Shown piece by piece: positions 9,956 to 41,800 of a stretch of DNA of 46,146 nucleotides. The notes beneath the pieces are model-generated. The model was not told the origin of the DNA, ran no database searches, and worked only from the letters and a program-made list of their open reading frames with translations. The stretch's first letter is position 1; every line of letters begins with the position of its first letter. The position numbers and the translations under genes were made by a program. This stretch comes from Bacteroidaceae bacterium (lineage in GTDB: Bacteria > Bacteroidota > Bacteroidia > Bacteroidales > Bacteroidaceae): positions 1 through 46,146 of the forward strand of contig JAGAAL010000010.1 of assembly GCA_017615245.1 (NCBI GenBank). Direction: 5' to 3'.

Positions 9956-12538
9956 TTATTGGGCTTGGGTCCCGAAATAGCTGTAATGATTGTTGTCGGG
10001 ATTGACCACGATCTGTTCCACCACAATCTCGGGGTCAATCATGATGACTTTGAGGGTGTGCTTGCCTGGGGTGATGCCCTCGAAGGTGGCATCGAGCCAG
10101 CGGAGGTTGTCGAACACCTCATCGCGACGGGGCAACTGACGTCCGTTCCAGAAGCCGCTCAGGGCAAGACGACTGCGTGGAGGCAGAGGCTTGAGCACCT
10201 TGGAACGGGCAAGGTTCTGGGGATTGTACTCCGAGAAGGTGTCAACAATGCCGCGACGGGCATCGATGGTCTGCATGGGCAAGTCGTCAACCTGGATGCC
10301 GATCCGAAGTCCTCGGGCTGGATAGATGTCCTGTGTGGGCAGGATGCCGATGGCTATTGAGGGTTTAGAGTTTAGAGTTGAGGATTTAGAGACTTCTATG
10401 TCGTATTCCAACGTGGCTCCGCTGTTCTGTGCCAACACATTGCTGCTGCCCATGCAACCTTTGCCACGTCCGAGGTCGGGCAGGAAAGTCCATGCGGCAC
10501 CCTTGCCATCCGTCTTGCGGGAGAACTGGTAGGCAGGAATGCTGTATTCCTGGGTGGCTGGCTGGTCTTGCAGTGCATAGCCGACGTTGAAGTCTAATGC
10601 ACCACGATGCGGCATCGGGTCTTTCTCCTTGAAACCCTCACGCACGGAAGGTTTGCCGAGCTTCATGGGGTTCATATTGTCCTTGGGCATCGACCACTGG
10701 GTGTAACCGATGTGCTTGTCCTGCATCATCTTGCTCCATTTGCCCCCAGCAATCTGGTGATAGTAGTCGCTGAGCTGCTGGTCGCGAGCCATCAGTTGGT
10801 CGATGAGGTTGGAGTTGCCACGGGTGGCAGCATTGTAGATCTGAGCCACTCCTGCACTTGCCACCACGGGGTAATAGACCAATTGGTAGTAGGCATCCTG
10901 TGCCTCAGCTGGAATCTTCACCCGCAGTGCCTCTGCACGGGCTGAGAGCGAGAGCCACAGACTGTCGGTATATGCCATCTCCTCCTTGTTGAAGATGCCC
11001 GGCACCTGTGCCTCTGCCTTGCGCCAAAGGTTGTACTTCGTGTATTTCGCCATGAGGTCAGCAGCCTCCTTGGCATGCTCTGCGCCAAAAGCATTCGCAG
11101 CAAAGCCTTCCAGCCAAGCCTGCTCGTCACCAGCCTTCACAGCATCGGGGTTCCAGGCGTAGTGCATGATGAAGTCGATGGGCACTTCCTTGGGTTTCAG
11201 ATCACCCACATTGATAATCCAGATGCGGTCGATGCCCGTCTGGTAGGCGAGGTTGAGCTGTTCGCGCAACTTGGGGATGGTGGTGGTGTTCACCCATCGG
11301 TCGTTCCACGGACCGCCGTTCATGTCGATATGGTAGTAGAGACCCAGTCCACCCTTGCGCTTGCGTTCGAAATCACGACCGATGCGACGGATGTAGCCCC
11401 AGTTGTTGTCGCAGAGCAGCAAGGTCACATCGTCGGGTACGGTGAAGCCTGCATCATAATATCGTTGCACCTCGGTGAAGATGGCCCAAAGCTGTGGCAC
11501 TCCGTCCTCACGTCCATACACCTTCTTGATAATGGAGCGTTGACCCTTGATGACCTCAGCAAGCGTCTTCATGTTGTCAGCATCATCGCCCTTGCCCATC
11601 GCCACGTCGCCATCACCACGCATACCGATGGTCACGAGGTTGTCGTATGCCTTGTTGCGCTGCATGCCGTCGAGGAAGAACTTGTCCAGGCGTTCCTTGT
11701 TCACGGAGTAATCCCAAGGACCAATCTCGTCCTTGCGGGTCACATACTCACGGTGGGCACGCATCATCGGCTCATGGTGGGAGGTGCCCATCACGATGCC
11801 ATACTCATCAGCCAGACGAGGACTCTCGGGGTCATCCTCATTGAAGCGGCTCCCCCACATGGCAGGCCACAGATAGTTGGCTTTCAGGCGCAGCAGCAGC
11901 TCAAACATGTGGGCATACGCCTTCGAGTTGATGCCACCGAAGTGTTCCGTCGCCCAGTCGCCAAACGACGGCCATTCGTCGTTGATGAAGATACCGCGAT
12001 ACTTCACCTTGGGAGAGGGCTGCACGAAGCGACCAGCTGTCCAATAAAGCTCGTCCTGATGCTGCACAGGCACGTCAGCCCACCAGTACCAGGGCGACAC
12101 ACCGATGCGTTGGCTAATCTCGTAGATGCCATAGATGGTGCCACGCTTGTCGCTGCCAGCCACCACGAGATTGCCGTCCATCACATCAATGACGAACGAC
12201 TCCCACTGTCCCTTCACCTTACTCACGTCCAGCTTCTTCTGCTTGATGAGGCGGTCGATGAGCCGGCTCTTGCCGATAGTGCCCACGACAATGCAGCCGT
12301 CATCTTCACTATTCACTATTCTCTGTTCACTATTCACTAGCAAAGTTGCTGGTTTTCCAGTAACTTTGCGCACGTCGTCGCCCAGGTCATTGGCAGCACG
12401 GATCACGCCTTTCCAGTCCTGTTCATCCACCACGATTGTCGCAGCCTTGCCGTCCTTGGCAATACAGAATGTTTCCTGTGCTATCGCATTCATCGACATG
12501 ATGATAAAAGCAGCAAACAATAATATTATCTTTCTCAT
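9956..12538 (-). CDS. GH115 alpha-glucuronidase, secreted (first copy)
   Basis: This enzyme should remove (4-O-methyl-)glucuronic acid from internal and terminal xylose units of glucuronoxylan. The 860-residue protein has a signal peptide ending near AIAQ. An N-terminal domain contains GCIVVGTIGKS and is followed by the catalytic region with WYWWADVPV, KYRGIFINDEW (E188), LLLRLKANYLWPAMW, GTSHHEPM and VTLLLCDNNWGYIRRI, all GH115 hallmarks. A C-terminal beta domain closes the protein, without the C-terminal tail. Two heptamer arrays lie inside the gene and encode VNSEQRIVNSED near residue 70 and SKSSTLNSK near residue 720, both probably surface loops. Its start overlaps the GH59 stop by 4 bp (ATGA), so the two are coupled. 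Confidence 0.93.
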   Translation of the reverse strand: MRKIILLFAAFIIMSMNAIAQETFCIAKDGKAATIVVDEQDWKGVIRAANDLGDDVRKVTGKPATLLVNSEQRIVNSEDDGCIVVGTIGKSRLIDRLIKQKKLDVSKVKGQWESFVIDVMDGNLVVAGSDKRGTIYGIYEISQRIGVSPWYWWADVPVQHQDELYWTAGRFVQPSPKVKYRGIFINDEWPSFGDWATEHFGGINSKAYAHMFELLLRLKANYLWPAMWGSRFNEDDPESPRLADEYGIVMGTSHHEPMMRAHREYVTRKDEIGPWDYSVNKERLDKFFLDGMQRNKAYDNLVTIGMRGDGDVAMGKGDDADNMKTLAEVIKGQRSIIKKVYGREDGVPQLWAIFTEVQRYYDAGFTVPDDVTLLLCDNNWGYIRRIGRDFERKRKGGLGLYYHIDMNGGPWNDRWVNTTTIPKLREQLNLAYQTGIDRIWIINVGDLKPKEVPIDFIMHYAWNPDAVKAGDEQAWLEGFAANAFGAEHAKEAADLMAKYTKYNLWRKAEAQVPGIFNKEEMAYTDSLWLSLSARAEALRVKIPAEAQDAYYQLVYYPVVASAGVAQIYNAATRGNSNLIDQLMARDQQLSDYYHQIAGGKWSKMMQDKHIGYTQWSMPKDNMNPMKLGKPSVREGFKEKDPMPHRGALDFNVGYALQDQPATQEYSIPAYQFSRKTDGKGAAWTFLPDLGRGKGCMGSSNVLAQNSGATLEYDIEVSKSSTLNSKPSIAIGILPTQDIYPARGLRIGIQVDDLPMQTIDARRGIVDTFSEYNPQNLARSKVLKPLPPRSRLALSGFWNGRQLPRRDEVFDNLRWLDATFEGITPGKHTLKVIMIDPEIVVEQIVVNPDNNHYSYFGTQAQ
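10364..10391 (+). repeat. Heptamer array inside GH115 (TTTAGAG type)
   Basis: Four tandem 7-bp units: TTTAGAG twice, TTGAGGA, then TTTAGAG. On the coding (minus) strand they give the Ser/Lys/Asn stretch SKSSTLNSK, and the reading frame stays open. This is one of eight such arrays in the window. Confidence 0.75.
12305..12339 (+). repeat. Heptamer array inside GH115 (TTCACTA type)
   Basis: Five tandem 7-bp units: TTCACTA twice, TTCTCTG, then TTCACTA twice. On the coding strand they encode LVNSEQRIVNSE, an insertion-like loop in the N-terminal domain between KVTGKPAT and DDGCIVVG. Confidence 0.8.
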
Positions 12539-14589
12539 AATATAGGAATAATTTTTAAGTTATCGAAATAAGGGGTACATATGCGTTGCTTTTGCATGGG
12601 AGCCAATAGGCCTGCCATACCCTTGGGGTAGCGGTCGGACTTTGCCTGTAGCACTTGCTGGCCATCAACGAAGCCAGTAATAGTATCGCCCTTGAAACGA
12701 AGCTTGAGATTGTGCCAACTGCAAGGCCCAATGCCTTTAACCTGTGTAGAAGCCAACGAATACTCCCCACCGACTTCCACATCCTTGCGGGCAAGGATAG
12801 CTTCTTGTTGCTCCTTGTCACCTATGAGTTCCTTGGGGTTGAGTTTGCCGCGAGTAATGACAAGCGTACAATGTCCTTGATCATCGAGTTTCAAATAATA
12901 GCCCTTTGCCCAGATGCCATAGCCGGAACCGACATCGCAGACACGCCCCATCACAGCAGCCTCATCTTGTGGATTCAGATAGACATCAGCACTTACCTCG
13001 TAGTCGCGCCAGGCGGAATCACCAAGGATGGTGTAATGATGCCATTCGGGTGCCCAGCTGAGGGTGTGTTCTCCAACCACCTGACGGATGCAAGCCCCCT
13101 TTCTGTCCCCCGAGTGGGATGATGGGTCTGGAGTAGGTCTTAATTCAAACGCGCCGATGATATCAGCTGTGTAGCGGGGTAAGTATCCACAAGCCTGAGG
13201 ATTGTATGCTTCGAAGTTGTCCTCGTAGGGAATCGGGAAAGATTGCGAAGTGGGGATATCGGCAAATGAACCTTTTTGCTGTCCACGGGTCGTGGAGAGA
13301 GAATAGACTGCATTGGGCTCTAACGTGATGGTAAAGCTACCTCCCCTTGGCTTGATGTCAGCTTGTTGCACGAACTGCTCTTGTTCGATGCTTCGCCACA
13401 CGCAGAGTGTGTTTCTGCTCAATCTCTTATCAACCTTTATCTTGAGTGTTTGTGTTTGCTGGGCATCTTTTGTCTCAACAATGACGCTGTAGTCGCCCGT
13501 TGCAGGGTTCTTCAGGGTGACCATCGTGCCACCACCATCCAGTGCCAGACAACCATCATCCACATATTGCCAACCCACTTCAGTGAACTGTCCGTAGTGG
13601 GCATAGCCCCAGAGGTTCTCGCGAACAGAATAATGTCCGCTCCACGGTTCCCAAGCCAGCACCATCGCAGGGTCATGACTGTAAGGCTCCAGGGGATAGA
13701 CACCAGCAATGTCGTACCAATTGACCACCTTGGTCGCTCCACTCACGATGTAGTTCTCGTTGAAACACTTCACGATACTGATGAGACAGTCGAAGCCTTT
13801 GCGATAGACATGATCCTCGCTGTTCCAAATGGGCTTCCCCATCGCTTCTGCCAATTCACGTTGTTCCTTTGTCAATGGGATTTCACTGAATGTATGGGCA
13901 CTGACCACATCGATGGCATCACGCAATTCTGGATCATTCTGCATGTCCTTCAGAAAATTCATCTTTCCCCCACCCCAGTTATCAAATGCATGCAGTTTCA
14001 CATTTGAGAAGCCACGTTCGTTCATTGTGCGGCGCAGCATCTTGGCAAAGTCGTAGCTGACGCCTTTCTCGTTGTGGCAGCCGATGGCATCGAGTTCCAA
14101 CCCATATACCTGACGCAGTCCGCTGAGCCACGACACATAATAGTCAGCCATATCCTGCGACCAATAGTTGCCCACCCATGCCGGAGCGCTCCACGCCGTA
14201 GCATCGAGCGAGAGTTTTGGGTTGCGACTCTTGGCTTCAGTCATCACCCACCACATATACCCACGTTGGAAGTTGTAGTCTCCACGATAATGGCTGTGGG
14301 AGGGCATAGAGCCCTGTGTGGAGTTGCCGTCGCCAGGAATTTCCACGAGCAGGGTGCTCACAGAAGCACCGAACTTAGGCTTATAGACCAAGTCCATGAT
14401 TTGTGAGCGTTGCGGTTCTGGATAGTCCTTCAGCAGCACCGACGTTGCACCGCCTCCATTTACAATTCCTATACCATCGAAGGTCTTACCTGTGGATTGG
14501 CTACTGAGCTGGATGGTCTGAGTTTGTGCCATCAGGTGTCCATTGCTCATGAGCAACATACCAGAGAAAAAGATTGTTTTTATATTCAT
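12535..14589 (-). CDS. GH59 galactocerebrosidase-family beta-galactosidase, secreted
   Basis: A 684-residue secreted enzyme of the galactosylceramidase family, which hydrolyses terminal beta-galactosides. After a signal peptide, the family signature FDGIGIVNGGGATSVLL and YPEPQRSQIMDLVYKP is clear, followed by VEIPGDGNSTQGSMPSH. The acid/base is in GCHNEKG (E174) and the nucleophile in IWNSEDH (E258), matching the positions used in mammalian GALC. The C-terminal part (about 470-684) resembles the lectin-like domain of GALC. A lipid substrate is unlikely in a xylan cluster, so removal of galactose from xylan side chains is the working inference. The start codon is preceded by a heptamer array rather than a Shine-Dalgarno site; the stop overlaps the GH115 start. 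Confidence 0.88.
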   Translation of the reverse strand: MNIKTIFFSGMLLMSNGHLMAQTQTIQLSSQSTGKTFDGIGIVNGGGATSVLLKDYPEPQRSQIMDLVYKPKFGASVSTLLVEIPGDGNSTQGSMPSHSHYRGDYNFQRGYMWWVMTEAKSRNPKLSLDATAWSAPAWVGNYWSQDMADYYVSWLSGLRQVYGLELDAIGCHNEKGVSYDFAKMLRRTMNERGFSNVKLHAFDNWGGGKMNFLKDMQNDPELRDAIDVVSAHTFSEIPLTKEQRELAEAMGKPIWNSEDHVYRKGFDCLISIVKCFNENYIVSGATKVVNWYDIAGVYPLEPYSHDPAMVLAWEPWSGHYSVRENLWGYAHYGQFTEVGWQYVDDGCLALDGGGTMVTLKNPATGDYSVIVETKDAQQTQTLKIKVDKRLSRNTLCVWRSIEQEQFVQQADIKPRGGSFTITLEPNAVYSLSTTRGQQKGSFADIPTSQSFPIPYEDNFEAYNPQACGYLPRYTADIIGAFELRPTPDPSSHSGDRKGACIRQVVGEHTLSWAPEWHHYTILGDSAWRDYEVSADVYLNPQDEAAVMGRVCDVGSGYGIWAKGYYLKLDDQGHCTLVITRGKLNPKELIGDKEQQEAILARKDVEVGGEYSLASTQVKGIGPCSWHNLKLRFKGDTITGFVDGQQVLQAKSDRYPKGMAGLLAPMQKQRICTPYFDNLKIIPIL

Positions 14590-14594
14590 CTTTA

Positions 14595-14620
14595 TTTAGA
14601 CTTTAGACCTTAGACTTTAG
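14595..14620 (+). repeat. Heptamer array between GH59 and the esterase-GH98 gene (TTTAGAC type)
   Basis: TTTAGAC occurs twice, followed by CTTAGAC and a partial TTTAG. The array fills the short intergenic space and runs into the stop codon (14617-14619) of the upstream gene. It thus occupies the leader just before the GH59 start. Confidence 0.7.
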
Positions 14621-17600: not shown

Positions 17601-17658
17601 CCTGTTGTATGCTCCACCACGAGACAGCTATCAATAATATAATAAAACCTCTTTTCAT
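14617..17658 (-). CDS. Esterase-GH98-CBM35 fusion protein, secreted
   Basis: A 1013-residue protein combining two activities. Residues 25-305 form an alpha/beta-hydrolase esterase of the CE1/prolyl-oligopeptidase type, with FLHGGWN, the nucleophile elbow GHSMGGGG (S199) and a likely catalytic His in YADHPDMFP (H280). From about 315 the GH98 catalytic domain begins (MWILHIDTWN...VPEDIRPYVVFNLSLS) and carries a conserved CEQFWGFGD (E422). The GH98 C-terminal domain follows (TGRYAAIPVVYAL, YTTRWSSEQEKVDEFN). A CBM6/35-like module from about 885 (YEAENFDYKG) ends the protein without a tail. GH98 includes blood-group endo-galactosidases and an endoxylanase; xylan is favoured here by context. The likely function is backbone cleavage coupled to de-esterification. 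Its start overlaps the upstream esterase stop by 4 bp. Confidence 0.88.
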   Translation of the reverse strand: MKRGFIILLIAVSWWSIQQAFPQPNIVFGTSRDAEVVMLQAREIARNAEVKTVQTWNEGRDKKLSYYFEDAKEDMPFRVCVPRSWDGKTKLPLMMFLHGGWNNESSYLDQNDRQLVRMADKYGYLLVSPLGAHSSYGNRLVLPAEFGKEKETEEVLSKRNTPEMMHAQELSEQDVINVLEIVLNRYPVDRGCMFLCGHSMGGGGTWYLGGKYPDYWRALAPMSGPFVTREGYPWERLRQKPILITEGTLAGASLDASRQLRDWMRKEGFRLEYKEVYADHPDMFPLTLEDVFCFFDRQQEKPLVAAPLRRPISTHQPMWILHIDTWNHADPQKIIDMVPEDIRPYVVFNLSLSINHRADRWLQVEYGYETAKSWLRTCAENRVWAMIQPSSGAFCHFTDGDMTVFDEFFRDYPNFVGFNYCEQFWGFGDPYGVTFEQRLDHWADLMELNVRYGGYLTWSWCNAYYDADRNPIALMKRSPRLRKLLSEHPENFICCEKYTMNHGFHEIESMCLGAWLGGYAGQYGTRFDETGWRGNEPREKFPVSAGPAPVLEHLLLTGQTVVDGPETIPVQVCHEIKSTLTADGFTTRKWEFYPQFQNIYFDIFRKILDGTIRLLTRQEVLNRTKVALIHDVNIESGDRDAMRANYIAPETLYDGLYKMPGDGTWLSQHSWFKSTGRYAAIPVVYALNKDASHTIPVQVKVSDYTTRWSSEQEKVDEFNTLYPQEYTGDAYAGRADNCWIIYNPFKTGQSASACIPLKYNSCEQMEVRLPRYSTMLAKEYSDHISLYFNNYDNALSQARTDTIQITGIHGKATYNVTDRLKPLASSDVPAQVTVEQKGKNLTLYVTHNGPLDIEINCKGRAKQRLSAAKTGTTHEPAIPPTYEGPFQYEAENFDYKGIKANITNGVNKSVRDYTAQGYLDFGGYADAAIRKTIRAPRNGSNTITIRYKASDGARSIRLNINGNIQSVELPATKHNWWGTVTVQTELNKGDNRLEISAAAASENSLLIDNVIIN

Positions 17659-19460: not shown

Positions 19461-20836
19461 TTTATTAGTTTTTTATTTGAAGTTGTTATTTGTTGTACCA
19501 CCCACTCTGAAGCGAGCGCTTCACTCTCGGAATAGTTGAAGTGACCATTGGTATAAGTATTAACTATGGTATGTGGTGCCTTCATCTCATTGAGCATGCC
19601 GAAGATGGAGGTGGGTGAACAGAAGTTGTCGTTGAAGCCAAAGTAATAGTAGCCGGGTGCCTTGAGGATACGGGCGAAGTTGACCACGTCGAAGTATTGC
19701 AGGGTTTCGATTTCTGCTTTGTCGTCGATGGTCAGCACCTTGTCGGTGGGTTTGCGTTCGGGACTTTCCTTGAAGAAGTATTTAGGCCATCCTCCTGCAC
19801 GCCCATGGGCAAAGCCTGTCAGATCGCAGAGGGCAGGGTAGGCAGCACACACCAATGATGCCTTCTCGTGCAAGGCAGCTGTGACGATGCTGAGCGCTCC
19901 ACCTTGGCTGCCATCCTTGCAGACCACGTTCTTGCCATCCCATTCGGGCAGCGAACAGAGGTAATCGACGCAGCGCACACAACCAGCATACACCTGACGA
20001 TAGTAGCAGCTGTCGCGCGACTCGAGTCCACGGTTCCAGTAGGCGAAGGTGCTGTTCCACACCCCGTCGAAGTACTCCTTGGAAAGCTCAGGGTTATGCC
20101 CATGTATATCCACATTGAGCACAATGAATCCCTTGCGGGCAAAGTCTTTCTGAGGGGAACGTTTGTAGGGTCCAGCTCCCGGAGGACAGAACATCACGGG
20201 ATACTTGTTGAGTTTAGTGTTTAGAGTGGAGAGTTTAGAGCTTTTCGGTTTGCTCAGATAGCCATAGAAGCACTTGCCATTTTCGCCCACTGTGAGTCGG
20301 ACAAGATACACATCCACTTGTGAATCGGAGTATTGTGGCATCCATGTCATATGAGCATCCAAGTCTGTCTGCCGTGCCTTCTTGATTTCCTGCTGCCAGA
20401 ACTTTCCGAAGTCTGCAGGCATCGTTGTGAAAGGACGGATGGCTGCAATGTCGAAGCCCACCTTCACAACATCCTTATAGGTTTTGCCAAACACATCGAA
20501 TTCAAAATCGCATTCTCGGAACCCGGGGGCAGAGGCTGTGCCCATAGAGATGGTAGCCACACCTTGTTTAAACATAGTTGACTGATTAGGAGCTGGCAAC
20601 ACCATCTCATCACCCACGGAGTAGCGTATTTTCACTCCATCGAGTGGAATGCCTCCCTTCTGTGCCTGTATGGTGATGATAGCCTCTTCGCCCGTCTGAA
20701 AGGTGCGATTGGGATGATTCACATTGACCAAATACTCTACATACTGATGTCGGTCGCCTGCATACTGGGCGTGACTGTTGAGTGTCCATACAACAAAGAG
20801 CATTGCAAATAGTAGTATGCGATTCATTGTTTTCAT
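19457..20836 (-). CDS. CE7-type acetyl xylan esterase, secreted
   Basis: A 459-residue acetyl esterase of the AXE1/cephalosporin-C-deacetylase (CE7) family that would remove O-acetyl groups from xylan or its oligomers. A signal peptide (cleavage near SHAQ) and an N-terminal Ig-like domain (about 25-130) precede the AXE1 domain. Visible motifs are the segment around FCPPGAGPYKRSPQK, LNVDIHGH, RQVYAGCVRCVDYLCSLPEWD, the nucleophile elbow DGSQGGAL (S310) and a late Asp/His region (FNDNFCSPTS, NGHFNYSE). Family members outside this phylum are usually about 320 residues; the extra length is the N-terminal domain. A heptamer array encodes SSKLSTLNTKL near residue 200. An alternative start lies at 20827. 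The stop overlaps the next esterase start by 4 bp. Confidence 0.88.
   Translation of the reverse strand: MKTMNRILLFAMLFVVWTLNSHAQYAGDRHQYVEYLVNVNHPNRTFQTGEEAIITIQAQKGGIPLDGVKIRYSVGDEMVLPAPNQSTMFKQGVATISMGTASAPGFRECDFEFDVFGKTYKDVVKVGFDIAAIRPFTTMPADFGKFWQQEIKKARQTDLDAHMTWMPQYSDSQVDVYLVRLTVGENGKCFYGYLSKPKSSKLSTLNTKLNKYPVMFCPPGAGPYKRSPQKDFARKGFIVLNVDIHGHNPELSKEYFDGVWNSTFAYWNRGLESRDSCYYRQVYAGCVRCVDYLCSLPEWDGKNVVCKDGSQGGALSIVTAALHEKASLVCAAYPALCDLTGFAHGRAGGWPKYFFKESPERKPTDKVLTIDDKAEIETLQYFDVVNFARILKAPGYYYFGFNDNFCSPTSIFGMLNEMKAPHTIVNTYTNGHFNYSESEALASEWVVQQITTSNKKLIK
20213..20240 (+). repeat. Heptamer array inside the CE7 gene (TTTAGAG type)
   Basis: Four tandem 7-bp units: TTTAGTG, TTTAGAG, TGGAGAG, TTTAGAG. 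The coding strand reads LSTLNTKL-like sequence in a loop between GYLSKP and YPVMFCPPG. The units are almost the same as those in the GH115 gene at 10.4 kb. Confidence 0.75.
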
Positions 20837-21641: not shown

Positions 21642-24600
21642 TTAATCCTTTATAATTACTTTTCTGGTTTGGCCGTCTTTCGTGCGGATGATGTTGATTC
21701 CACGCTGCAACGACTGCCGCCGTTCTCCACCGATGTTGTAGATGCTGTAAGTTGAATCCCGAACCTTGAAGCTTGAAAGTTCAATACTGTTAGCATCGCC
21801 TGTTTCGCTGATGTAGCAATCCAAAAGCAGGAACTCATGATAGTCGGATTCAAACGTACTTGTATTCTCAAAGCGGATGATGTAGTTGCCTTCTGTTTCT
21901 ATGCAGAATGGCAGCTCGTGGGTCTTTGACTGTGTGAGGTTGGCAGTCCTGCTTCCATCAGCATTGGGAGTTGCATCGTGGCTTACGGATTCAGCAACCA
22001 TATTGCCAGAGTTGTCGAGTATCTGGGCTTTATAGTTCGGATTTTTTTTCCATGCGGCCATCACATAAGTCAGCGTATAGTTGCCCTTAGCAAGTTTAAG
22101 CGGATATGCGCTTTGTCGTCCATACTCAGCATAGTTGTCGCGCCAATACAGACCTTTGCCTTGATACCCGGTGAAGCCAGCAAACGTACGTGCTCCCAAC
22201 GAATAGGTCTCGGGGTATTCATGCACCTCGCCATTCTCCTGAACACAGCGCCATCCTTGTGGCAAACTACCCTCAGCTACCGAAGCGAAGCTAAGTTTAT
22301 AGAGCGAGCCGTTTTCTTCTTCCTCACCGAATACTGGCACAATTGTTACGATATCATCAGGCATCAGGAAACTGACCGTCTGATTTTCCTTGTCATACGC
22401 CACTATGTTGAGGGTCGTACCTAAGGTATAGTTCACACCATTTACCATACGCAGTTCCTTCAGAACATAGCCCTTGCTTTCATTGACCTTGAGCGTCACG
22501 GTGTCGCCCTCCATTGCTTCGCTCACATCGGAGCTGACTGATCCGTGACTCGCCTTACGGACGGTGATGAGGAAGCGTTCATTCTCTAGGTCAGCAGGGG
22601 TGTAGATGATCTGGTCTATATACATGGGCAGACCTGTGTGGTTGGTCAGCACAAGGTCGTTCTTGCCGGCTTTGAGTGTTGCCTCAACAGTTGCTTTCTT
22701 CCATTCGTTTAGTTCTGTCTTCTCGGTAGTCATCATCACAGTCTTTCCATTCACCTGGGCACGCACCTTTCCTGCCTTGGAAGTACATGTATATCGCATA
22801 CTGATGCGGTAGCTTCCTGCCTTGGAGAGAGTGAGTTGATGGCGCAATGCTCCGCTTGTGTTCGTTCCCATATCGGCAAACCCGTTTCCTGCATGTCCTA
22901 TGACGCTTGGATACCATGTGTATGGGTCGGTCACACAACTCTTGATGTTCTTATAGTCCATATCTTCTGCCTCAATGATGATTTCCCCATGATAGGGATC
23001 GGGCTGTTTGGGCAGGTCGGCTGTCAGCGAAGTGGTACTTACCATGTCGGTTCTTCTGTCTGAAGCGTTTCCCTCACAATTGATTGTAAGGTCTAAACCG
23101 CCCATGTGTTTCAACGTGAGCGTATATGTTCCGGTTTCTGCATTCCAGTCAGCAGTCGCGTTTCCCTTAGCTAAAGTGCGTTTCGTCAGCTTATAGGTCG
23201 GCTCCGTCTTCACTCCAGTAACCACAATGGTTTCAGTCACCAGAGCAGTCGTATCGGTTCGGAAGTTGTTGAAGTAGAAATCGATATGGTCGGCATATTC
23301 CCGCACCAAAGCACTACCAAGAGTACCAAGAGTCAGCTTCAGTTTGTCGCATGTGTTATACTCGAGAGGTATCTCCCCCGTACAAAGCTTACCTCCATGC
23401 AGGTTCGTGTGTGGCCAGTAGGTGACGAGCTGGTTCTTAAATCGGTTCACATACAAGTCACCCTTCGACAATTCCGGATAGCGTGCATTGAAGTCATTCA
23501 CCTTCTTCGTCTGGGTGCTCCATCTTGACGTATAGTTCGACCGTTTTACCTTCAGCGGAATGGTCTTAGCCAAAGAGTCATACAGCTCCACACAGAGAGG
23601 TATGGCACCATATCGGCCTGTCTTCTTGAAGAAACAGCGGTTGTTCATAAACTGACCGTCACCCGTGTTGGCTCGGTCGGTCTGTTTGTACAGACCATCA
23701 TATATGTCGCCCCATGTGGCATACTTCTCTTCATCGCTGCCAGACGTTCTGTCGGCAATCACCACGATTTTCGTCTTGCCAACCACCTCTTCGCGTGTAG
23801 GTATGTATAAGGTGCCGTCAGTCACTTTGCGCCACATGTCAATCCATGCACCACGGAAACCATCAAACGTACCCCAGTTCCGACGAGTGTAGCCATCCAC
23901 CGTAGAGTTCGACAAGTTTCTGAAATCCTCTGTCCATATCAGCTCAGGTCCGTCCCACACAGCTCCTCCGTTCATGCCTGTTTGCTCCATCACGGTACCG
24001 ATACCTGCCGCTACGGGATAAGGCGAACCGTCACCCAACTGTTGACGCACGCCATCCCACGCGCAGTTGTCGTAGCGGACACCATAGTTCGTAGCCAGTC
24101 CGCTGATGAAAGGCGAAAGAGTCACACTCTCCGAATTGTAGAAACACCAAGACTGGGTGTACTTATACAGCCACAATATAGCCTCCGGATAGTCGCGACA
24201 AGCCTGCAACAACTGCTTGTTGCGCTTCATCATACCCACAGGACTCAGTCCATGGCTCCACTTGTTTCCACAGAATGAGACGGTGAGGAAACCGCCATAC
24301 TTGTGCGACATCTTCACCAACTCTGCAAACAACGCAATCTGGTCGGTCTGGCTGGCCGAACTCTTATTGCCGGCCTCGTCAAAACCCCAGAACTGTTCAG
24401 CATAGTTCCACCCCAGGAAGTTGGGAAACCGCTTGAAGAAATACTCAAATGTCTCCAAATCATCAGTCTGCAGGTGAGTATGTCCACCCGATGCTGGCTG
24501 GCATGAGAACCACAAGCCGTTCTGCTGACACACTGTTCCCCACGACTTGTAAGTCCTGACAGCATTCTGAGGCATCAGATACTGATTACGTTCCGTATTG

Positions 24601-32815: not shown

Positions 32816-32834
32816 TTTCGTCTTCGTTTATGAG

Positions 32835-35207
32835 TTACCTTATAAATATCTTACGGTTGCCGTTGATGTAAATACCTCGGGACAATCGGCCTTTGGACAT
32901 TTTCCGACCGTTGGGGTCGAAGATGTAATCTCTTGCCTCTATCCTTTCACCTCTCACCTCTTCTATGCCGTCGGAAACGGCGTAGTCGTAGATTCGGAGG
33001 CAATCGAGGAAAACGTTCTTTCCTTGGATGCCATTAATTGTCACGACATTCGTTCCCTCTTTCAGTTCTGCCTCAAAGGTGATGAGGGTCCAGTCGTCGC
33101 CGCGAGTGAGGCTGACCGCCTGCGTCTTGTTGTTGATTCTGACACTCAGCCTCAGGTCGGCAGGTGCCTGGTATCGAAGCGCGAGTTTGGCGGTACATGC
33201 TTGAGGCACGCTTATTGTGTCGCGGATGGATGCTTTGGTATTGGTCCCCAGTTCCAGGAATCCTTGTCCCTGATAGCGGACGTGTCCGTGATAATACCCG
33301 TTATTGCGGCATCCCGCGATATTTTTGTAGTCGAAACATTCGGCCTCGTATTGCAGCGTATCGGTATAGACAGGAGGCAAATCGGGTGTAACGATTGTGG
33401 ATGGTGTGTATTCGGTAAGACGTTCGGTGGCAATTCCCGCACATCGCACGGCTACATCGAGCGGGCCGTTATGGGCAACGGTTATCGTAAGCACTCCATC
33501 GGCGTATGATGTCTTCACGGTGCTGCGGCGATGCCTGGCGCGGTCTTTCCACGTTACGACGGGTTCGGTTGCCACGCCGTAGATGCGAATGGTGTCTATG
33601 GCATTCGCCGCTTCGGTGAATGTGTTTCCGGAGGTGGCGTTGCGATAGTTTGTCAGATAGAAGCTGATGCTGTCGGTAAACTCTTTCATCACTCCCATGG
33701 AATAGGGCGCATAGCACAATGAGACGCTCTCGCATGTGTTGTAGAGGAACGGGATGCGGCCCGAAGCGCATGTCGTCGCTGTCCGGACGTCACGAAGGTT
33801 GGTCGAGGTGTCGAGCGTGTCGTCATACTGATAAGGATTGTAGGTCATCCACGTATTCTCGTGATGGGCAGCATATATGTCTCCCGTATATTCTTCGGGG
33901 AAATAGCGGTTGAACTCCGCAACTTTGCTTGCTACCGTTTTCCATCGGGACGCGTAATTGGCATAGTTCACTTTGACCTTTATCTTTTTCGCGACATCGT
34001 CGAGCAAGGCGTAGCATTGTGGCGGACATGCATACCGACCGGTTGATTTCAACCACCAACGCTGTTCGAGCGGACGCTTGTGCGGACGGTCGCCTCGTCC
34101 CCAGTTGTCGCACTCCCGTCGATAGAGTCCGTCGTACAGGTCGTCGGGAGTGGTATAGGCCGTAGCACCGTTGTTGATGATACATATCTTGCTGCGGTCG
34201 ATTATCTCCTCGCGAGTCATGATACGAACCGTCCCGTCAAGAATCTTGCGGAACTCGTCGATGTTGATGTTGACGAAATGTGGAAACCAATCCCAGTTGC
34301 GTCGTGTGTATCCGTCTTTGGTGGTTGTAGTGGAAACCTCATGCGAACACTCCACGGGGATAGTCTCCGGGCCGTCGATCACAGTCTCTCCGTCGAGCAA
34401 CACGTGTTCCATGATAGGGATCGCGCCTGCCGCTTTGACGAAGGGGTCTTTCTTACCGTCGCTGGCCGACCAACCGCAGGCGTCAAAACGGATGCCGAGT
34501 TGTCCGGCATATCCACCAACATAGGCTCCCAGACAATTGCTCTCTATGTCGAAGAAACAGTTTGCCATCGTGTATTTCTCACAACAGATGAAGTTTTCGG
34601 GATGGGCTGTGAGTCGCTTGCGAAGGGCTGCGTTTCTCATGTAGGCTATCGGCATCATGTGCGACGAGAAATATGCCTGAGTGAAACTGACAACAAGGTA
34701 GCCTCCATATTGCTGACAGTAATCAAGTATGTGCGCAAAGGTGTTGAGACGCTGTTCGAATGTTGGTTGTCCGGTATCACCAAATCCCCAGAACTGCTCA
34801 GCGAAATTCCATCCAAGGAAGTTGGGGAATTGCCTGAAATAGCGTTCGTATTCCGAAAATTCCGTATCGGAGAACCGACTGTGCGAACCACTTGCGGGCT
34901 GTATCATGGCCCAGACACGCTTGGCAGCACAGGCTCGCATCCATGAGTCGCATACATCGGGACCGTTGCAACACACGGCATCTGTCGCCGATAGTGAGAG
35001 ATTGAAACAAACGAATGGACGAATGTCCTCCGGTACCATCTCGATGATACGTTCCGGATCGGGCGTGTTCCACGTGTCAATATGTATCAGCCACATGGGC
35101 TGAGAAGGACTGATGGGACGTCGCAGGTTGGACGTCTGAGCGTTTGCCGTCATAGAAAGAATAACGGACGCGCACAACAAAACTACAGAAAAAACAATTC
35201 GTTTCAT
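32835..35207 (-). CDS. GH98 glycosidase with CBM35, secreted
   Basis: A 790-residue secreted GH98 enzyme, the shortest of three in the window. The catalytic domain opens with MWLIHIDTWNTPDPERI and VPEDIRPFVCFNLSLS, and has WNFAEQFWGFGD (E137) and GIRFDACGW. Its C-terminal domain is at about 375-590 (TGRYACPPQCYAL, YASRWKTVASKVAEFN). A CBM6/35-like module follows (about 605-735; YEAECFDYKN). A heptamer array encodes EEVRGERIEAR just before the tail (YIFDPNGRK, GIYINGNRK). It is more similar to the GH98 part of the fusion protein than to the 1059-residue one in the regions I compared (HPENFICCEKYTM, ETVIDGPETIPV). Endo-acting cleavage of decorated xylan is inferred. It follows GH115 by 89 bp. 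Confidence 0.88.
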   Translation of the reverse strand: MKRIVFSVVLLCASVILSMTANAQTSNLRRPISPSQPMWLIHIDTWNTPDPERIIEMVPEDIRPFVCFNLSLSATDAVCCNGPDVCDSWMRACAAKRVWAMIQPASGSHSRFSDTEFSEYERYFRQFPNFLGWNFAEQFWGFGDTGQPTFEQRLNTFAHILDYCQQYGGYLVVSFTQAYFSSHMMPIAYMRNAALRKRLTAHPENFICCEKYTMANCFFDIESNCLGAYVGGYAGQLGIRFDACGWSASDGKKDPFVKAAGAIPIMEHVLLDGETVIDGPETIPVECSHEVSTTTTKDGYTRRNWDWFPHFVNINIDEFRKILDGTVRIMTREEIIDRSKICIINNGATAYTTPDDLYDGLYRRECDNWGRGDRPHKRPLEQRWWLKSTGRYACPPQCYALLDDVAKKIKVKVNYANYASRWKTVASKVAEFNRYFPEEYTGDIYAAHHENTWMTYNPYQYDDTLDTSTNLRDVRTATTCASGRIPFLYNTCESVSLCYAPYSMGVMKEFTDSISFYLTNYRNATSGNTFTEAANAIDTIRIYGVATEPVVTWKDRARHRRSTVKTSYADGVLTITVAHNGPLDVAVRCAGIATERLTEYTPSTIVTPDLPPVYTDTLQYEAECFDYKNIAGCRNNGYYHGHVRYQGQGFLELGTNTKASIRDTISVPQACTAKLALRYQAPADLRLSVRINNKTQAVSLTRGDDWTLITFEAELKEGTNVVTINGIQGKNVFLDCLRIYDYAVSDGIEEVRGERIEARDYIFDPNGRKMSKGRLSRGIYINGNRKIFIR
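32933..32960 (+). repeat. Heptamer array before the GH98 tail (TCACCTC type)
   Basis: Four 7-bp units: TTGCCTC, TATCCTT, then TCACCTC twice. The coding strand gives VRGERIEAR in the linker between the CBM35 module and the C-terminal tail. Confidence 0.7.
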
Positions 35208-35232
35208 ATACCTATTTAACTATTTTTTGTCG

Positions 35233-35274
35233 AAAGTCTAAAGTCTAAGGCCTTTGACCGAGTCCCTTTGACCT
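35233..35274 (+). repeat. Heptamer array between GH115 and GH98 (AAAGTCT type)
   Basis: Six 7-bp units: AAAGTCT twice, AAGGCCT, TTGACCG, AGTCCCT, TTGACCT. The array lies in the 89-bp space between the GH115 stop and the GH98 start. On the minus strand its core unit is AGACTTT, a rephased TTTAGAC like the array at 14.6 kb. Confidence 0.75.
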
Positions 35275-35296
35275 ATTTCTGTTTAACTATTAAACT

Positions 35297-38200
35297 TTAT
35301 CTGAAGAGTCGTAAGTTACCGTTCATAATATGAAGCCCCTTAGTTGGAGAGGACAGCCTCATGCCGGATAGGGAATAGACATTACGGTCTTGGGCAGAAA
35401 GAGACGCAGACAGGTTGCGGATGCTATTTGCATCGTCCACACGCTCAAGACGGAAATCATCCACTTTGAACCATCCATCATTATTTGTGGCGGTGGTTCC
35501 GTCCCCATGTCGGTTGCTGGTTGCAACGCCCAGCTTCAGAGACTCGCCCTCACGAATGGAGAATACCACGCTGATTTCCTTCAGGCTTTGATTGTGTTCG
35601 CTATTGCCTGCAAAGGTGTTGATTTCGCCTGGGGTGAGGTTGGACGCATAGTCGGATTCATGACCGAAATAGGTCACATAGTTGTTTGCAAACAATCGCA
35701 CGTTGTTATACTGTCCTGGGATGGCCATACGACAACTGAGGAGGTATGTACCGGGAGAGAGTCCGCTGACTGTCTGATAGAGGCGGAAGTCGGCAGGAAA
35801 CTGATTGCTATTGATCCAGCAGAGGTTTTGTCCGCTATAGTTGCTTCCGTCTTTGTTGATGCCCCACGAAGAACCTGCAAACTGGCCTTCTGTTTTCCAC
35901 CCGTAAGGACATCCCCGAACGGTGGTTCCGTCGTTCAATACTCCTTTTGCCTTGTATTCAAAGTCTGGATTCTGGAGCAGGTAGGTCAGATCGTTGGCAG
36001 AACTGCTCGTGACCTTCATCGAAGTGAGAACGAGTGCGGGGTCGAGGAAATAGACGACGAGCGTGATGTCTTTATCCTCATCGGAGAGGTAGGAGAAGTC
36101 TCCCTTGGCATATCCGCGTACCACTCCTGATGCCCAGTCGCCTCCAGTCTCTGCCTCAACCTTGATGCTCTTGGCCTGGGGACTTGCCCCGTCAATCGAG
36201 ACGGCAAATCGCAAATCGAGACCTTGATAAAGCGGGAACGAAGGCAGGCAGTGAACTTCGATAGCATTTGAGCCGGCTTTCACTGGGATGCGATAGGTGG
36301 CTGATGGTGCTGATATGGGGTTAGAGTACTGCTTGTAATTGAGCGGCCAAATGGTCAAGGCATTTTCAACATCGCCTAATCCCTGAATGACGGTGAAGTC
36401 CGAGCTACCTCGTGTGGACTCATACTGATGGGCTGAGACGAGGGTCGTTTGCTTTGAGGTCTCGTAGATGAGACCCGACGTGTTGACATCTTCCCCGGTT
36501 GCTACTTCCAACTCTTTGAACTTTGCCTCGCCAAGAGGTGCATAGCTCATCATGCCGTTCCATTTACCACCTGCTATGCCTGTGTTGTAGCGATTTGTAA
36601 GCGACACAATCTGACGGAACGCCTGATGCGACTGCTCACCCAATGCAGCTGTCTGCTCGGCATCACCTCGTTGGGCAGCCTTATAACTGAGGTTGGCAGC
36701 CATAACCTTGTTGTTCATGGCCGCAGCTGCTTCGATTGGGTAGGTAATCAACTGGAACCAGGCATCTTTGAGGTTGGATGGGATGCGGGCTTCGAGTGCC
36801 TTCACCTCTGTCACCAAGGCATCATACCACTCCATGCGTTGGCGCATTTCATCGGTAGAATATGAGATGTTGATTTCGAATTCCGGTTTGCCGCTTTGTA
36901 CAATGCGGTAATACTCCTTTTTAATATTATATATATCATCCGCAAAATCTTCACCGAACATCTCTGCACCCCATTGACGGATGTATCGGTTAGGCTCATG
37001 ACTGTCAACGGAATGGACATCCCAGGCAAAATCGAGCGCAAAGCAGATTTCAAATTCCTGCGGCTTGATGTCACCCACATTGAACACCCATACTGTCTTG
37101 CAGTTCAACTCGTAGGCTTTCATCATCTCAAACCAAGTGAGGGCAGGAGCACTACTTGCCAACCACAACCAACACTGAGGCCATCCCCAATAGGAGAAGT
37201 GGTAGTACACTCCTCCACCTCCGCTGCGACGTTGTTCACTCTTGTTGGAGAGCTGACGGATATATCCGTAGTTATCGTCGGCCCAAAGCAGGGTGACATC
37301 ATCGGGCAGGCTGATACCTTGACGATAAATGTTGAGTGCTTCCTTGTATGGGCAGTAAATCTGAGGAACGAGAGCTGGGTCTTTATCCAGATTGTCTTTG
37401 ATGAGCTGACGCTGAGCTGTGATGATCTGCCGCATAGCAGTAGCCTTCTCTTCCAAGGTGTTATAACCAGGCATACCTGAATCGTGAATGCCACGCATTC
37501 CGACAGTATAGATGGCATCATTGTTCTTCGATTCCTTTACACGGTCGCCCCAATAACGGCTGATAACCTGACTATTGGTCTTCCAGTTCCAATCACCGCG
37601 AGTGACGCCTGGATATTCCTTGCCGAAGTTGTTGTTCCACTCGTCCACATTGTCGCGCAACATCTGTTCACAATGGCTTGAACCAAGAACAATATCGTAC
37701 TTACGGGCCATCTGCGGGTTTGCCTTATAATACCAAAAAGCCTTTGTGCAAGGATGCATGGCTGGCCACAGATAATTAGCTTTCAAACGAAGCAGGAGTT
37801 GAAACACTCGTTCGTAGGTCTTCGGACCTGCATCGCCTATGTCTGTATCCATTGTTTGTTTGGCCCATGGCTGAAGCCCCCAGTCCTCATCGTTGATGAA
37901 GATGCCACGATATTTCACTGATGGGGGGCCAAACACCTGGGAACCTGCACATACGGTCACAACATCGTGACGAGCAGGCTTGACATCTGCCCACCACACC
38001 AGCGGACTGACACCCATCATGCGCGAGAGTTCCAACATTCCGTATGCTGTTCCTCGAGGATCACTACCAAAGATGACCACAGCTCGTCCGATGTCGGCAG
38101 TTGGCTGCTCAACAATAGTGATGCAGAACGTTTCCCACTTTCCTGCAACCTGCATGGTGTCGATTTTATGGTTTACAGCTAAAGAGTCGATAAGCTTGCT

Positions 38201-38491
38201 CTGCCCTACCGTTCCTGCCATAATCGCATACGAACTAACTGTCAACACACGGCGGATAGCTGGCTTGATACCCGTCACACTCTTCACATCATCCGAAAGC
38301 ATAGTAGCAACTGCAGTAACTACCTGAGCATCGCCGGAACTGATGAAGATAGGAGTAGCAACACGATTAGCAACGATAGGAACATCGTTCATTCCTGCTG
38401 CTTCAAATTTAACATGCAACCCATCTTTCTGGGCCATCAGAAACTGCACCGTCGTACAGCAAAACAAAAGGATTGATAGATATCGTTTCAT
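35297..38491 (-). CDS. GH115 alpha-glucuronidase with extra C-terminal module, secreted (second copy)
   Basis: A 1064-residue GH115 enzyme, first gene of the block read from the 38.5 kb promoter. The signal peptide ends near LMAQ. The N-terminal domain (AIMAGTVGQSKLID) leads into the catalytic region with LVWWADVKPARHD, KYRGIFINDEDWGLQPW (E202), LLLRLKANYLWPAMH, GSSHCEQM, VTLLWADDNYGYIRQL and VWVFNVGDIKPQEFE. After the usual C-terminal beta domain, this copy has a CBM4_9-like module (about 865-1030; QNPDFEYKAKG, LSPGTYLLSCRM, WFKVDDFRLERV) and a tail with VYSLSGMRL and GLHIMNG. The other GH115 lacks both. The two may differ in side-chain context or location; that is inference. Confidence 0.93.
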   Translation of the reverse strand: MKRYLSILLFCCTTVQFLMAQKDGLHVKFEAAGMNDVPIVANRVATPIFISSGDAQVVTAVATMLSDDVKSVTGIKPAIRRVLTVSSYAIMAGTVGQSKLIDSLAVNHKIDTMQVAGKWETFCITIVEQPTADIGRAVVIFGSDPRGTAYGMLELSRMMGVSPLVWWADVKPARHDVVTVCAGSQVFGPPSVKYRGIFINDEDWGLQPWAKQTMDTDIGDAGPKTYERVFQLLLRLKANYLWPAMHPCTKAFWYYKANPQMARKYDIVLGSSHCEQMLRDNVDEWNNNFGKEYPGVTRGDWNWKTNSQVISRYWGDRVKESKNNDAIYTVGMRGIHDSGMPGYNTLEEKATAMRQIITAQRQLIKDNLDKDPALVPQIYCPYKEALNIYRQGISLPDDVTLLWADDNYGYIRQLSNKSEQRRSGGGGVYYHFSYWGWPQCWLWLASSAPALTWFEMMKAYELNCKTVWVFNVGDIKPQEFEICFALDFAWDVHSVDSHEPNRYIRQWGAEMFGEDFADDIYNIKKEYYRIVQSGKPEFEINISYSTDEMRQRMEWYDALVTEVKALEARIPSNLKDAWFQLITYPIEAAAAMNNKVMAANLSYKAAQRGDAEQTAALGEQSHQAFRQIVSLTNRYNTGIAGGKWNGMMSYAPLGEAKFKELEVATGEDVNTSGLIYETSKQTTLVSAHQYESTRGSSDFTVIQGLGDVENALTIWPLNYKQYSNPISAPSATYRIPVKAGSNAIEVHCLPSFPLYQGLDLRFAVSIDGASPQAKSIKVEAETGGDWASGVVRGYAKGDFSYLSDEDKDITLVVYFLDPALVLTSMKVTSSSANDLTYLLQNPDFEYKAKGVLNDGTTVRGCPYGWKTEGQFAGSSWGINKDGSNYSGQNLCWINSNQFPADFRLYQTVSGLSPGTYLLSCRMAIPGQYNNVRLFANNYVTYFGHESDYASNLTPGEINTFAGNSEHNQSLKEISVVFSIREGESLKLGVATSNRHGDGTTATNNDGWFKVDDFRLERVDDANSIRNLSASLSAQDRNVYSLSGMRLSSPTKGLHIMNGNLRLFR

Positions 38492-38544
38492 ATGTTTTAT
38501 GAATTATTATTTTTGATTCGGATTATACTTTGCAGCACACTCTC

Positions 38545-38563
38545 GTTTCCAAGTGCAAAGTTA
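38545..38563 (-). promoter_or_regulatory. Promoter box for the GH115-GH98-GH43 block
   Basis: On the minus strand the sequence is TAACTTTGCACTTGGAAAC; TAACTTTG fits the TAnnTTTG -7 consensus. It ends 54 nt before the GH115 start. The 19-bp match to the box at 26.8 kb suggests shared control of both blocks. Confidence 0.6.
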
Positions 38564-38746
38564 TGAGTTTTCTTTATGTTTAATTTACATTATATTGATT
38601 TATCAGTTATAATTTCGTTCCCCTTATGTATTCTGTTTGGACAGGAAGGTGGTGTGGTTTGTTGTTTTTTTTGCAAAATAGTTGTGATTTTGTACTTTCT
38701 CAAGAAAAAATAGATAAAACATAAATGGTAAATGATATTTGTTTTG

Positions 38747-38754
38747 TATTTTTG
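38747..38754 (+). promoter_or_regulatory. Candidate -7 box for the regulator gene
   Basis: TATTTTTG, followed by CAG, matches TAnnTTTG and lies 83 bp before the chosen regulator start at 38837. No -33 TTTG is seen at the expected distance. Confidence 0.45.
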
Positions 38755-38836
38755 CAGTCAAGATACCGGAGGGCTGCCTAAAGTTTGTGGTGAGCCTAGC
38801 GAACTAAGGTCATTTCACATCATATATTCTACATTT

Positions 38837-41800
38837 ATGCGTAGCATTTTAACAATACTCCTATTGATGGTGGTCGGGGCAGCACAGGCTCAGCGTGCCC
38901 GACTCTACACAACACAGAACGGATTGAACTCGAGCGCACTCTATACGGCGTGCTTCGATTCGAAGGGAATGGCTTGGGTGACGGGTGTGGGCACCCTTCA
39001 ATTGTTCGATGGTTCGACATTTATGGATGTGCTCCACGACGGGAGTGAGTTGAAGAATGCAGTCTTTTTGAACGTGATGGAGTGGAAGGACGATCAGTAC
39101 TGGTTGGTGACTGGTAAGGGGTTGCAACTATACGACCTGCGCAGAAACCGAGTAGAACAAGTGCTGCTTTCCACCGATGAGGAGCCCTACTCCCTTCCAT
39201 TAGGCCGCATGGTGAGATATCCCAAGCAGGATTATGCGCTGATTACCACTTCGGGAATGGGCTTATACGTGTTCGACATGGAGGCACGGAAGGTGGACAG
39301 CAAGCTGACCAAGCAGCTATCGGAGTTGGTGGGAGTGAAGATGTTCAGAGATGTGATAGTCGGTGCAGACGGGCGGCTGTGGGGAAGCGGAGTAGGCAAG
39401 AATCTGTTTTGCATAGACCTGGCACAGATGAAGGAGTGCCCCCTGCAGATAACAGCAGAGGCGCAAGCTGTGCTCGACAGTCACAATGCGACGGATTTCT
39501 GCGAGTTGCGGAAGTCACACAACATACTGATTGCTACAACGGCAGGAATGCTGGTGTACGACAACAACAGCGGAGTGGTACGCAAGTTGAAAGGAAACAG
39601 GGAGATAACCTACACGGTGTCGTGCATCAAGGAGACGAAAGACGGACGGGTGATGCTGGGAATGGACAGTCACGGATTGTGGGTGATGAACGAAGATGAG
39701 AACATCGTGCCCTACGAGATGCCTGATAAAAACATAGACCTGACGTACGGAAAGGTGCGGTCGATCGACGAGGATGTTGAGGGGAACATGATTGTGTGTA
39801 TGTATAAGAAAGGTGTGCTCGTGGTGCCGAAAAATCAGGACAATTTCTCCTATATGCCCATATCGCCCACATCGGATCACGCAAATGCAACCTGCATCAC
39901 AGCAATCGCTGTGGATCACGATGGAAACTACTGGATAGGTGCTGACGGATGTGGGGTGCTGAAATGTAAGAGTACAGACCTGAGTGATGCCCAACTGATA
40001 ACTGGCGGACTGGCCTCACCTCAAGTGCAGTCCATCGAGGTGGACCGTGATGGAACAGTTTGGGTAGGTTCGTTCGGTGGAGGTGTGCAACAGCTGCAGG
40101 GAGAACGGTTTGTGACTCCCGAATGGTTGCAACGACTAGCTCACATGCCCGTCATGTCGATGAGCTACGACCCTCAGCGTCACCTCATGTATGTGGGTAC
40201 GAACGGTGGAGGAGTCCTGATGCTGGATCTCACCAGACACGACATCACACCACTCTCAAAATACGGAGACTTCAACTCATGGGTTGCCGCTTTATTTTGC
40301 GATGCGGAAGGAATATTGTGGTGCGGAACGGTGAGCGAAACGTCGTACTTCAACCCATCGTCGCTGATGCTCAAGCGAGTGACATTCGAAGAAGTTGACA
40401 ACAAAGCAGCGCAATGTTTTGCTGCAGACGGCATGGATGTGTTAATAGGAACGAATGTGGGACTCTACAGATATGCACCCGAGGGCGGGAAGGCTAAGTT
40501 AATACTCACAGGATGTAATGTACAGTCGATTGAGACGACAAAAACCGATATATGGGTGGCTACATCAAACCGCATCGTACGAATAGACAAGCGGACAGAA
40601 ACACCATACACCTACACATCTTTTGGCGGTTATTACATTGGCGACTTTACTAAAATGGCATCTTGTCAGTCGCCTGGACATACGATTTATTTTGGAGCAG
40701 ATAACGGAATCATTGGGTTCAACGAAATGAACCTGAAACAGCTACACAAACTGAAAAACCCGTTGATGTTGACCGAATTGAGGGTGAATGGTCAGAACTG
40801 CTTCTACGACGGAAGCGGAAATGGAGCGAACGTGCTTGACCAATCGCTGCTATATGCTACGAAGCTGAATGTGCCATACGACCAAAACACGCTAGAATTC
40901 ACCTTCTGTGTGCCCGACTATTCGGCCCCCAACCGCATCTTCTACCGATACAAGCTTGAGGGCTACGACAAAAACTGGCGCGCCGCTTCGGCAAACCATG
41001 AAGCCTACTATTCAAGTCTGCCGTCGGGGGACTACACGCTCATGATTCAGGCCTACTACGAGAACAACGAAAGTCAGATTGTGGAGAAGAAACTGAGCAT
41101 CCATGTGGGCTATCCGTGGTATGCCACTTGGTGGGCTTGGCTGATTTATCTGGCGATGGCCGGACTGACGCTCTACTATCTGTATAACACCTACAAGGTG
41201 CGAACCAGACAGAAACAACTCTTGTCGCAAGTACGCCACAACGAGCAGATCAAGGAAGCCAAACTGAGAATGTTTGCAAGCATCGCTCATGAGATGAAAT
41301 CACCCCTAACGATGATTGTGTCGCCTCTGCGTCAACTCATGAGCGAACAGGAAGACCAAAATGGCGAAGGGCTGAAGACAAAAGGCAAAGGGCAACAAGG
41401 TGAACATGAGGAGCAGCGACAGAGTCTGTACAAGGTCATGAGCATGAACTGCGAACGACTGATGCGTATCGTAAAACAGGTGACAGACATCCGCAGGATA
41501 GACAACGGACAGTTCCTGTTACACTTCTCTGAAGTCAACTTCGCCGATTATGCCGATGAGATATTCAAAAGTTTCTCTGGATATGCCGTTTCGAAACGCA
41601 TCTCGTTTGTGATAGAGCACACAAACAGAAATGCAAACATCTGGATAGACAAGGTACACTTCGAAAAAATACTGTCGAACCTGCTGTCCAACGCATTCAA
41701 GTTCACACCCGTTGAAGGACGTGTCATTGTGAAGACACGACCCATCAGGATAGACGCGAAAGACTGGTTTGAAATCCGTGTGTACAACAGCGGATCCTCC

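Follow-up and report, generated by a model that had tools for sequence, protein, structure and literature searches.

The window analysed here is the whole of a 46,146-nucleotide (nt) contig (C53) of the Bacteroidaceae draft genome G000, which comprises 1.97 Mb in 67 contigs and is 62% complete. From position 9956 to 42946 it holds a glycan-degradation cluster (two GH115, three GH98, one GH59, an AXE1 esterase and a hybrid two-component regulator; nine proteins were scanned), and scattered through this region are short tandem arrays of 7-nt units, which an earlier note had listed as eight sites (Table 1). A lag-7 self-match without gaps (+1 per match, -1.5 per mismatch) gave each site its score, and 40 order-2 Markov shuffles of the window served as the null. 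The shuffles give 0.075 stretches per window at a score of at least 10, 0.375 at 9 and 4.8 at 7, and the counts seen are 6, 7 and 15, respectively. Six sites are clearly beyond chance, that at 41367 is marginal and that at 21751 is at chance level; 21751-21785 has to be dropped, and the other seven sites are real when judged together (7 against 0.375 expected at scores of at least 9). What the window shows is one local part of a population of heptanucleotide simple repeats that extends through the genome.

Table 1. Array sites of the window, with the gene chosen for orthologue comparison
Positions	Strand	Feature	Score or supporting match
9956..12538	-	GH115 alpha-glucuronidase gene with two arrays, used for orthologue comparison	Pfam PF15979, E 9.2e-136; solved GH115 relatives
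10357..10391	-	CTCTAAA/CTCTCAA-type array in the GH115 gene, C-terminal domain, residues ~716-728	11.5 over 10357-10382
12305..12339	-	(TAGTGAA)5 array in the GH115 gene, residues ~67-78	18.0
14595..14620	-	GTCTAAA array between two co-directional genes	14.0
20212..20243	-	CTCTAAA-type array in the AXE1 acetyl xylan esterase gene	10.0; Pfam AXE1
21751..21785	-	Claimed array towards the 3' end of a GH98 gene, chance level	7.5 for the best stretch, 21761-21777
32930..32961	-	AGAGGTG-type array in a second GH98 gene, towards its 3' end	10.0; Pfam
35229..35274	-	Intergenic GTCTAAA array, then a degenerate stretch in the 7-nt register	10.5 for 35229-35248
41367..41395	+	Weak AAAGGCA array in a hybrid two-component gene, histidine kinase part	9.0 over 41375-41395

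The positions of the open reading frames (ORFs) confirm that six of the listed sites lie within genes and two between them. The 10357 array reads TCA in the two units (2 and 5) whose TAA would be an in-frame stop, and in the 12305 array the sole two deviations from a perfect (TAGTGAA)5, TAG to CAG and TGA to AGA, both fall in unit 3 and abolish exactly the two in-frame stops. The 32930 array lies 31 residues before the C terminus of its GH98 protein, and the 41367 array corresponds to residues ~879-888, within the Pfam HisKA domain (843-926). Between genes, the 14595 array overlaps the stop codon of the upstream gene, fills 22 of the 27 intergenic bases and begins 5 bases away from the 14589 start codon; in the array claimed at 35233-35274 the clean repeat is limited to the first 20 bases. 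A separate unit for each locus, as the earlier note had it, was not found: the arrays at 14595 (TTTAGAC) and 35229 (GTCTAAA) have reverse-complementary units, and the 10357 and 20212 arrays are both of the CTCTAAA/CTCTCAA type. No Rfam family matched in the window or in five loci scanned with it.

Genome G000 was sampled in 20 stretches totalling 433,910 bp (22% of the genome), with an array threshold of score 12. The scan for 7-bp periodicity, a check named beforehand, returned 49 period-7 arrays in these 434 kb and none in two shuffles of the sample; 18 arrays have period 8, any other period from 2 to 13 has at most eight, and the multiples of 7 are represented by 32 arrays at period 14 and 14 at period 21. 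Pattern-matched contigs supplied all 20 of these stretches, three of the five of G011, those of G028, G070 and G113 and most of those of G086, and densities may run high. With tandem 7-nt units beyond chance, the arrays belong to the general class of heptanucleotide simple sequence repeats (SSRs). The combination of a fixed period with a changing unit, claimed from the window, is real, genome-wide and far beyond chance; the period is not strictly 7, given the 18 period-8 arrays. The 49 arrays have 24 distinct canonical units, with a G+C content of about 27%, among which the AACTCTA and AACTCTC types dominate. The accompanying claim that this was not the spread of one sequence is too strong, as unit usage is genome-specific and one unit family dominates here. 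A loose unit pattern common to the loci, also claimed, stands above letter-shuffled units in this genome (5.02 bits against 4.57 +/- 0.18; 40 shuffles, maximum 4.90) but not in the 37 units of the other sampled genomes (4.35 against 4.36), and a universal unit motif was rejected. The commonest array length is four units (63 of 163 arrays, the score threshold hiding shorter ones). Across 43 long arrays from five genomes, identity between units drops from 0.848 at a distance of one unit to 0.790 at five, which fits local duplication. A family of period-11 arrays (CAACTCTATAC type) was also seen in G000 (L002 4917-4958, L016 6045-6168 and L019 2938-2990); these have a CAACTCTA stretch in common with the heptamers.

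Within the family, 24 of 121 genomes, spread over 10 of 25 genera, have the pattern (AACTCTM)x3, and species of one genus are not alike in this. Each genome has its own unit usage: the placements of (AACTCTM)x3 and (AACTGTM)x3, counted as overlapping placements rather than arrays, number 21 and 0 in G000, 16 and 1 in G011, 59 and 43 in G028, 63 and 38 in G086, 27 and 24 in G070, and 5 and 15 in G113. When scored without regard to the unit, genus g13 contains array-rich species (34 arrays in 240 kb of G028, 69 in 263 kb of G086, 6 in 40 kb of G070 and 5 in 40 kb of G113) and array-poor ones, with none in 93 kb of G051 or in 160 kb of G100. In G125 (114 kb sampled) we counted 10 period-8 arrays against 3 of period 7, several of the former in inverted pairs (L188, L189, L227). 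G010, G051, G063, G100, G125 and G120 were sampled from their first contigs.

The GH115 gene is closest to genes from rumen Prevotella and Bacteroidaceae drafts. Its orthologues do not retain the same sequence at the same place. Both arrays sit at indel-rich positions of the alignment, and their placement in loops is based on alignment gaps and Pfam bounds. At place 1 (the 10357 array), four of 73 relatives (L021, L024, L039 and L065) carry heptamer arrays of other units; the rest have no period-7 array at threshold, and none of the 73 is over threshold at periods 5, 6, 8 or 9. Place 2 (the 12305 array) gives a weak result, with other heptamer arrays in two of 77 relatives (L026, L069) and control periods counting one each at 8 and 9 and none at 5 and 6. 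A quick tree was made from 40 rows, relatives with short matches or less than 60% identity having been removed; on it, place 1 switches its array state no fewer than four times. The sister row of the window is L065 (SH-aLRT 96), L021 being nearest by path length; the place 1 segment of L065 has the 60 nt seen in the window, but with the unit TCAATGG and not CTCTAAA. In L027 and L085 a C-rich/G-rich insert occupies place 1, which suggests that this place is generally permissive.

The way in which arrays change can be followed in the sister pair G028 and G086, whose aligned blocks of more than 500 bp are 82-98% identical. The G028 region was looked for in 300 genomes and is complete only in these two, with short pieces in seven more; one stretch of G028 matched no counterpart in G086, and a further G086 array, lying where the aligned range ends, was left unplaced. 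We compared 23 array sites, of which 12 were taken, by eye, as cleanly alignable. At the clean sites the length differences are 0 (seven sites), -21, +14, +42, -7 and +70 nt, all multiples of 7, and copy number by whole units differs at five of the 12. The six clean sites within ORFs of both species differ by 0, 0, 0, 0, -21 and +42 nt. Arrays can also exchange their unit at constant length. At C37:41018 of G028, within a gene, (TGTCAAC)7 corresponds to a (TCTCAAC)-type array of equal length in G086, with six of the seven units differing at the same position, G to C, and the peptide LSTVNCQ becoming LSTLNSQ. As the C/G exchange is the rarest class (177 cases among 62,351 aligned sites), six such changes at one position make independent mutation a very unlikely cause. 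A second in-gene unit swap at equal length was found at 37066, where 7 of 37 bases differ against 11 of 300 in the flanks (96-97% identical).

We propose, at a probability of about 0.6, that heptanucleotide arrays duplicate and delete in 7-nt steps, are homogenised by copying and are then filtered by selection. New units would arise from slipped-strand replication or unequal exchange, and gene conversion or template switching would make units alike inside one array, from one array to another and across the two arms of inverted pairs; selection would clear most arrays from genes, sparing permissive places. As to the preference for 7, the standing hypothesis, which papers citing it ascribe to Mrazek in 2007, is reportedly that 7 nt is the length of DNA held by the polymerase. 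Mismatch repair, according to a 2014 survey (PMC4060949), deals well with loops of 1-3 bp but poorly with longer ones, so that 7-nt slippage could escape it even with MutS intact. Loss of MutS1 was rejected as a necessary cause, since MutS1 is found in rich and poor genomes alike: 16 of the 18 genomes searched have a match above the family cut-off, including the rich G028, G086, G070 and G113 and the poor G051 and G100.

Several observations weigh against this proposal. Slippage alone does not account for the preference for 7, for unit swaps at equal length or for units typical of one genome, and of the proposed conversion between arrays what is seen is the expected result. The 11 sites excluded from the clean set, left out for a weak array or for neighbouring sequence that had also changed or did not align next to it, differ by +215, -6, +27, +88, -5, +42, +60, +138, +129, +57 and +43 nt, with +42 the sole multiple of 7, and selection by eye could have favoured the multiple-of-7 rule. 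Fast array change is not general: base differences at the seven equal-length sites are 0/36, 7/37, 2/43, 0/33, 7/52, 2/31 and 4/33, and 37066 alone clearly exceeds its flanks. The 41018 array (7/52) differs about as much as its flanks, which show 86 and 90% identity; what is unusual there is the pattern of differences, not their number. Outside the family there is no sharp period-7 peak, 20 genomes of the phylum (692 kb), hand-chosen, about a third of them for matching the heptamer TAACTGA and three of these on listed contigs, having 10 arrays of period 7, 4 of period 8 and 9 of period 9. Finally, MutS1 is under the cut-off, with a weaker MutS-like match, only in G000 (62% complete) and G011 (85%), both array-rich, and its loss may contribute in their genus, g1. 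G004 and G010, of the same genus, have a MutS1 match over the cut-off; the G000 and G011 drafts are incomplete.

An alternative that we hold to be unlikely is that arrays, or small elements bearing them, spread between loci by copy-and-paste and diverged later. It would account for dominant units being specific to each genome and for one G028 array region that matches many places in G086, and genus g13 does have a dispersed element (L229-L243; G028, G086 and G125) with a core CTCCCCCTATTARTNATCCCCC, an AT-rich stretch and inverted arms made of arrays of 7/8-base units. With its conserved core or terminal inverted repeats this separate element is MITE/REP-like, while in the window arrays no common core, flank or terminal inverted repeat was noticed, no systematic search having been made. 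Copy-and-paste also has to contend with the 24 canonical units among 49 arrays and with the two orthologous sites that swap their unit yet keep length and place.

The dispersed element of genus g13 also bears on mechanism. Among 151 genomes its core has 8 matches in G028, 3 in G086, 3 in G125 and 1, weak, in G213; its backward control, which has nearly the same sequence, has 4 in G028 and 3 in G125, and the loci scanned gave no Rfam match. The unit of the arms (GTCATTTT, TGTGAAAT, TTATGAAT, GGTAAAT or GTCAATT type) varies between copies and is complementary within a copy. For 12 element copies (12 of the 15 loci, with unit groups assigned by hand from the arms), the own arm scores 23.2 on average and never below 11, whereas arms from other unit groups average 11.3 and reach 25. 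Own-arm complementarity, with a unit differing between copies, suggests that one arm templates the other. More generally, the 76 array pairs no more than 400 bp apart in the sampled genomes comprise 27 inverted, 17 same-way and 32 unrelated in unit.

A bolder reading, speculative and in our estimate rather improbable, is that a lineage-specific repeat-writing or repeat-converting activity sets the period (7 in the sampled rich species, 8 in G125) and the genome-typical unit, rewriting arrays in concert, both inverted arms included, with their length unchanged. If true, such an activity would be a bacterial counterpart of concerted evolution on arrays only ~30 bp long.

Relative to genes, arrays number per 100 kb 117 between co-directional genes and 4.0 in ORFs for G000, 134 and 3.7 for G028, and 144 and 10.8 for G086, which makes them 13- to 36-fold scarcer per base in ORFs as called, crudely, for this comparison. 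Inside ORFs lie 15 of 49, 10 of 34 and 22 of 65 arrays (about a third), and in 38 of 48 in-ORF arrays the pyrimidine-rich strand is the coding strand. Avoidance of stops was rejected as independent evidence that selection acts: the 54 bases that would make stops account for 21 of the 170 departures, but the ORFs being open forces at least 18 of them. Most arrays are probably near neutral, and some near start codons may affect expression. At L168 (3471-3573 and 17007-17110) and L005 (2056) arrays adjoin a sequence that resembles TAnnTTTG, the Bacteroidota promoter -7 element, and array length could affect promoters in this way. Selected regulatory sites, such as protein-binding sites close to start codons (MacGregor's proposal for the TAACTGA arrays), would be in line with the strong enrichment between co-directional genes and with the closeness of the 14595 array to its start codon. 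As a general account we find this improbable, because units vary among neighbouring loci and among orthologues, about a third of the arrays are within ORFs, and two genus g13 species have none in the 93 and 160 kb sampled.

A dedicated heptamer-writing enzyme, telomerase-like or with untemplated ligation or transferase activity, would explain the sharp period, the patchy species spread, the genome-typical unit and the concerted unit change; it is very unlikely, as no candidate enzyme was found and one genome has many units. The RVT_1 reverse transcriptase was rejected as a cause for lack of association with array richness, being absent from the rich G070 and G113 and present in the poor G051 and G100. 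Chance or ordinary protein sequence, to which the 21751-21785 site and the marginal 41367 site might be conceded, can be set aside with near certainty, given that the period spectrum and the window shuffles exclude chance for the other sites as a group and that GH115 orthologues are without these sequences.

Bacterial heptanucleotide repeats are already known, and what is new here is the concerted unit replacement, the complementary inverted arms and the period-8 sister species. A heptanucleotide excess among bacterial simple repeats is said, in the accounts of MacGregor (2015) and Rehm (2015), to have been described by Mrazek in 2007. The present arrays resemble that excess and the cyanobacterial STRR repeats, in which, reportedly, 7 is likewise the most frequent period among longer simple repeats, and differ from STRR in host lineage, in-gene placement and concerted replacement. 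TAACTGA direct repeats are described by MacGregor 2015 (PMC4679880) from marine Beggiatoaceae, Cyanobacteria and five Bacteroidetes. Like the arrays studied here, they are short heptamer arrays at many loci, patchy by species, often just before start codons, and missing or shorter in some close relatives; in their main genome, however, one unit dominates and related heptamers are rare, whereas here we find many units, frequent in-ORF arrays and equal-length swaps. TAACTGA arrays stand mostly just upstream of starts, a position that the 14595 array fits, in contrast to the six of eight window sites inside ORFs. TAACTGA x3, with one mismatch allowed, has no match in this genome and is present in 19 of 296 genomes searched in the phylum. 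The GGGNATC and GGGGA(C/T)T repeats of Xanthomonas and Nostoc, described by Rehm 2015 (PMC4692102), are likewise heptamer SSRs, mostly intergenic, with four units preferred and much variation in length and sequence between two close species. They are G-rich and quadruplex-forming, unlike the units here, which have ~27% G+C and do not carry a G-tract of three or four bases throughout, so that the modal four units need no quadruplex. Contingency-locus SSRs of phase variation, for instance the 7-bp repeats of the Haemophilus hmw genes, reportedly also change copy number between relatives; the in-gene differences of the sister-species comparison are by contrast multiples of 21 nt, which keep the frame and would not switch genes off. 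Among the matches listed from the open-access literature, none described Prevotella heptamer arrays or their concerted unit replacement.

The period-7 excess of bacterial simple repeats was reported years ago and its mechanism is unproven; with rich and poor gut relatives, a period-8 species and unit changes at the same base, the question becomes one of comparing close relatives. Besides, the arrays supply 7-residue modules such as LSTLNSQ to genes, those of glycan-degrading enzymes among them, and are a frame-keeping source of loop variation. Elsewhere in the window, at 45243-45850, 69-bp tandem repeats lie in an ORF whose translation resembles a leucine-rich-repeat surface protein.

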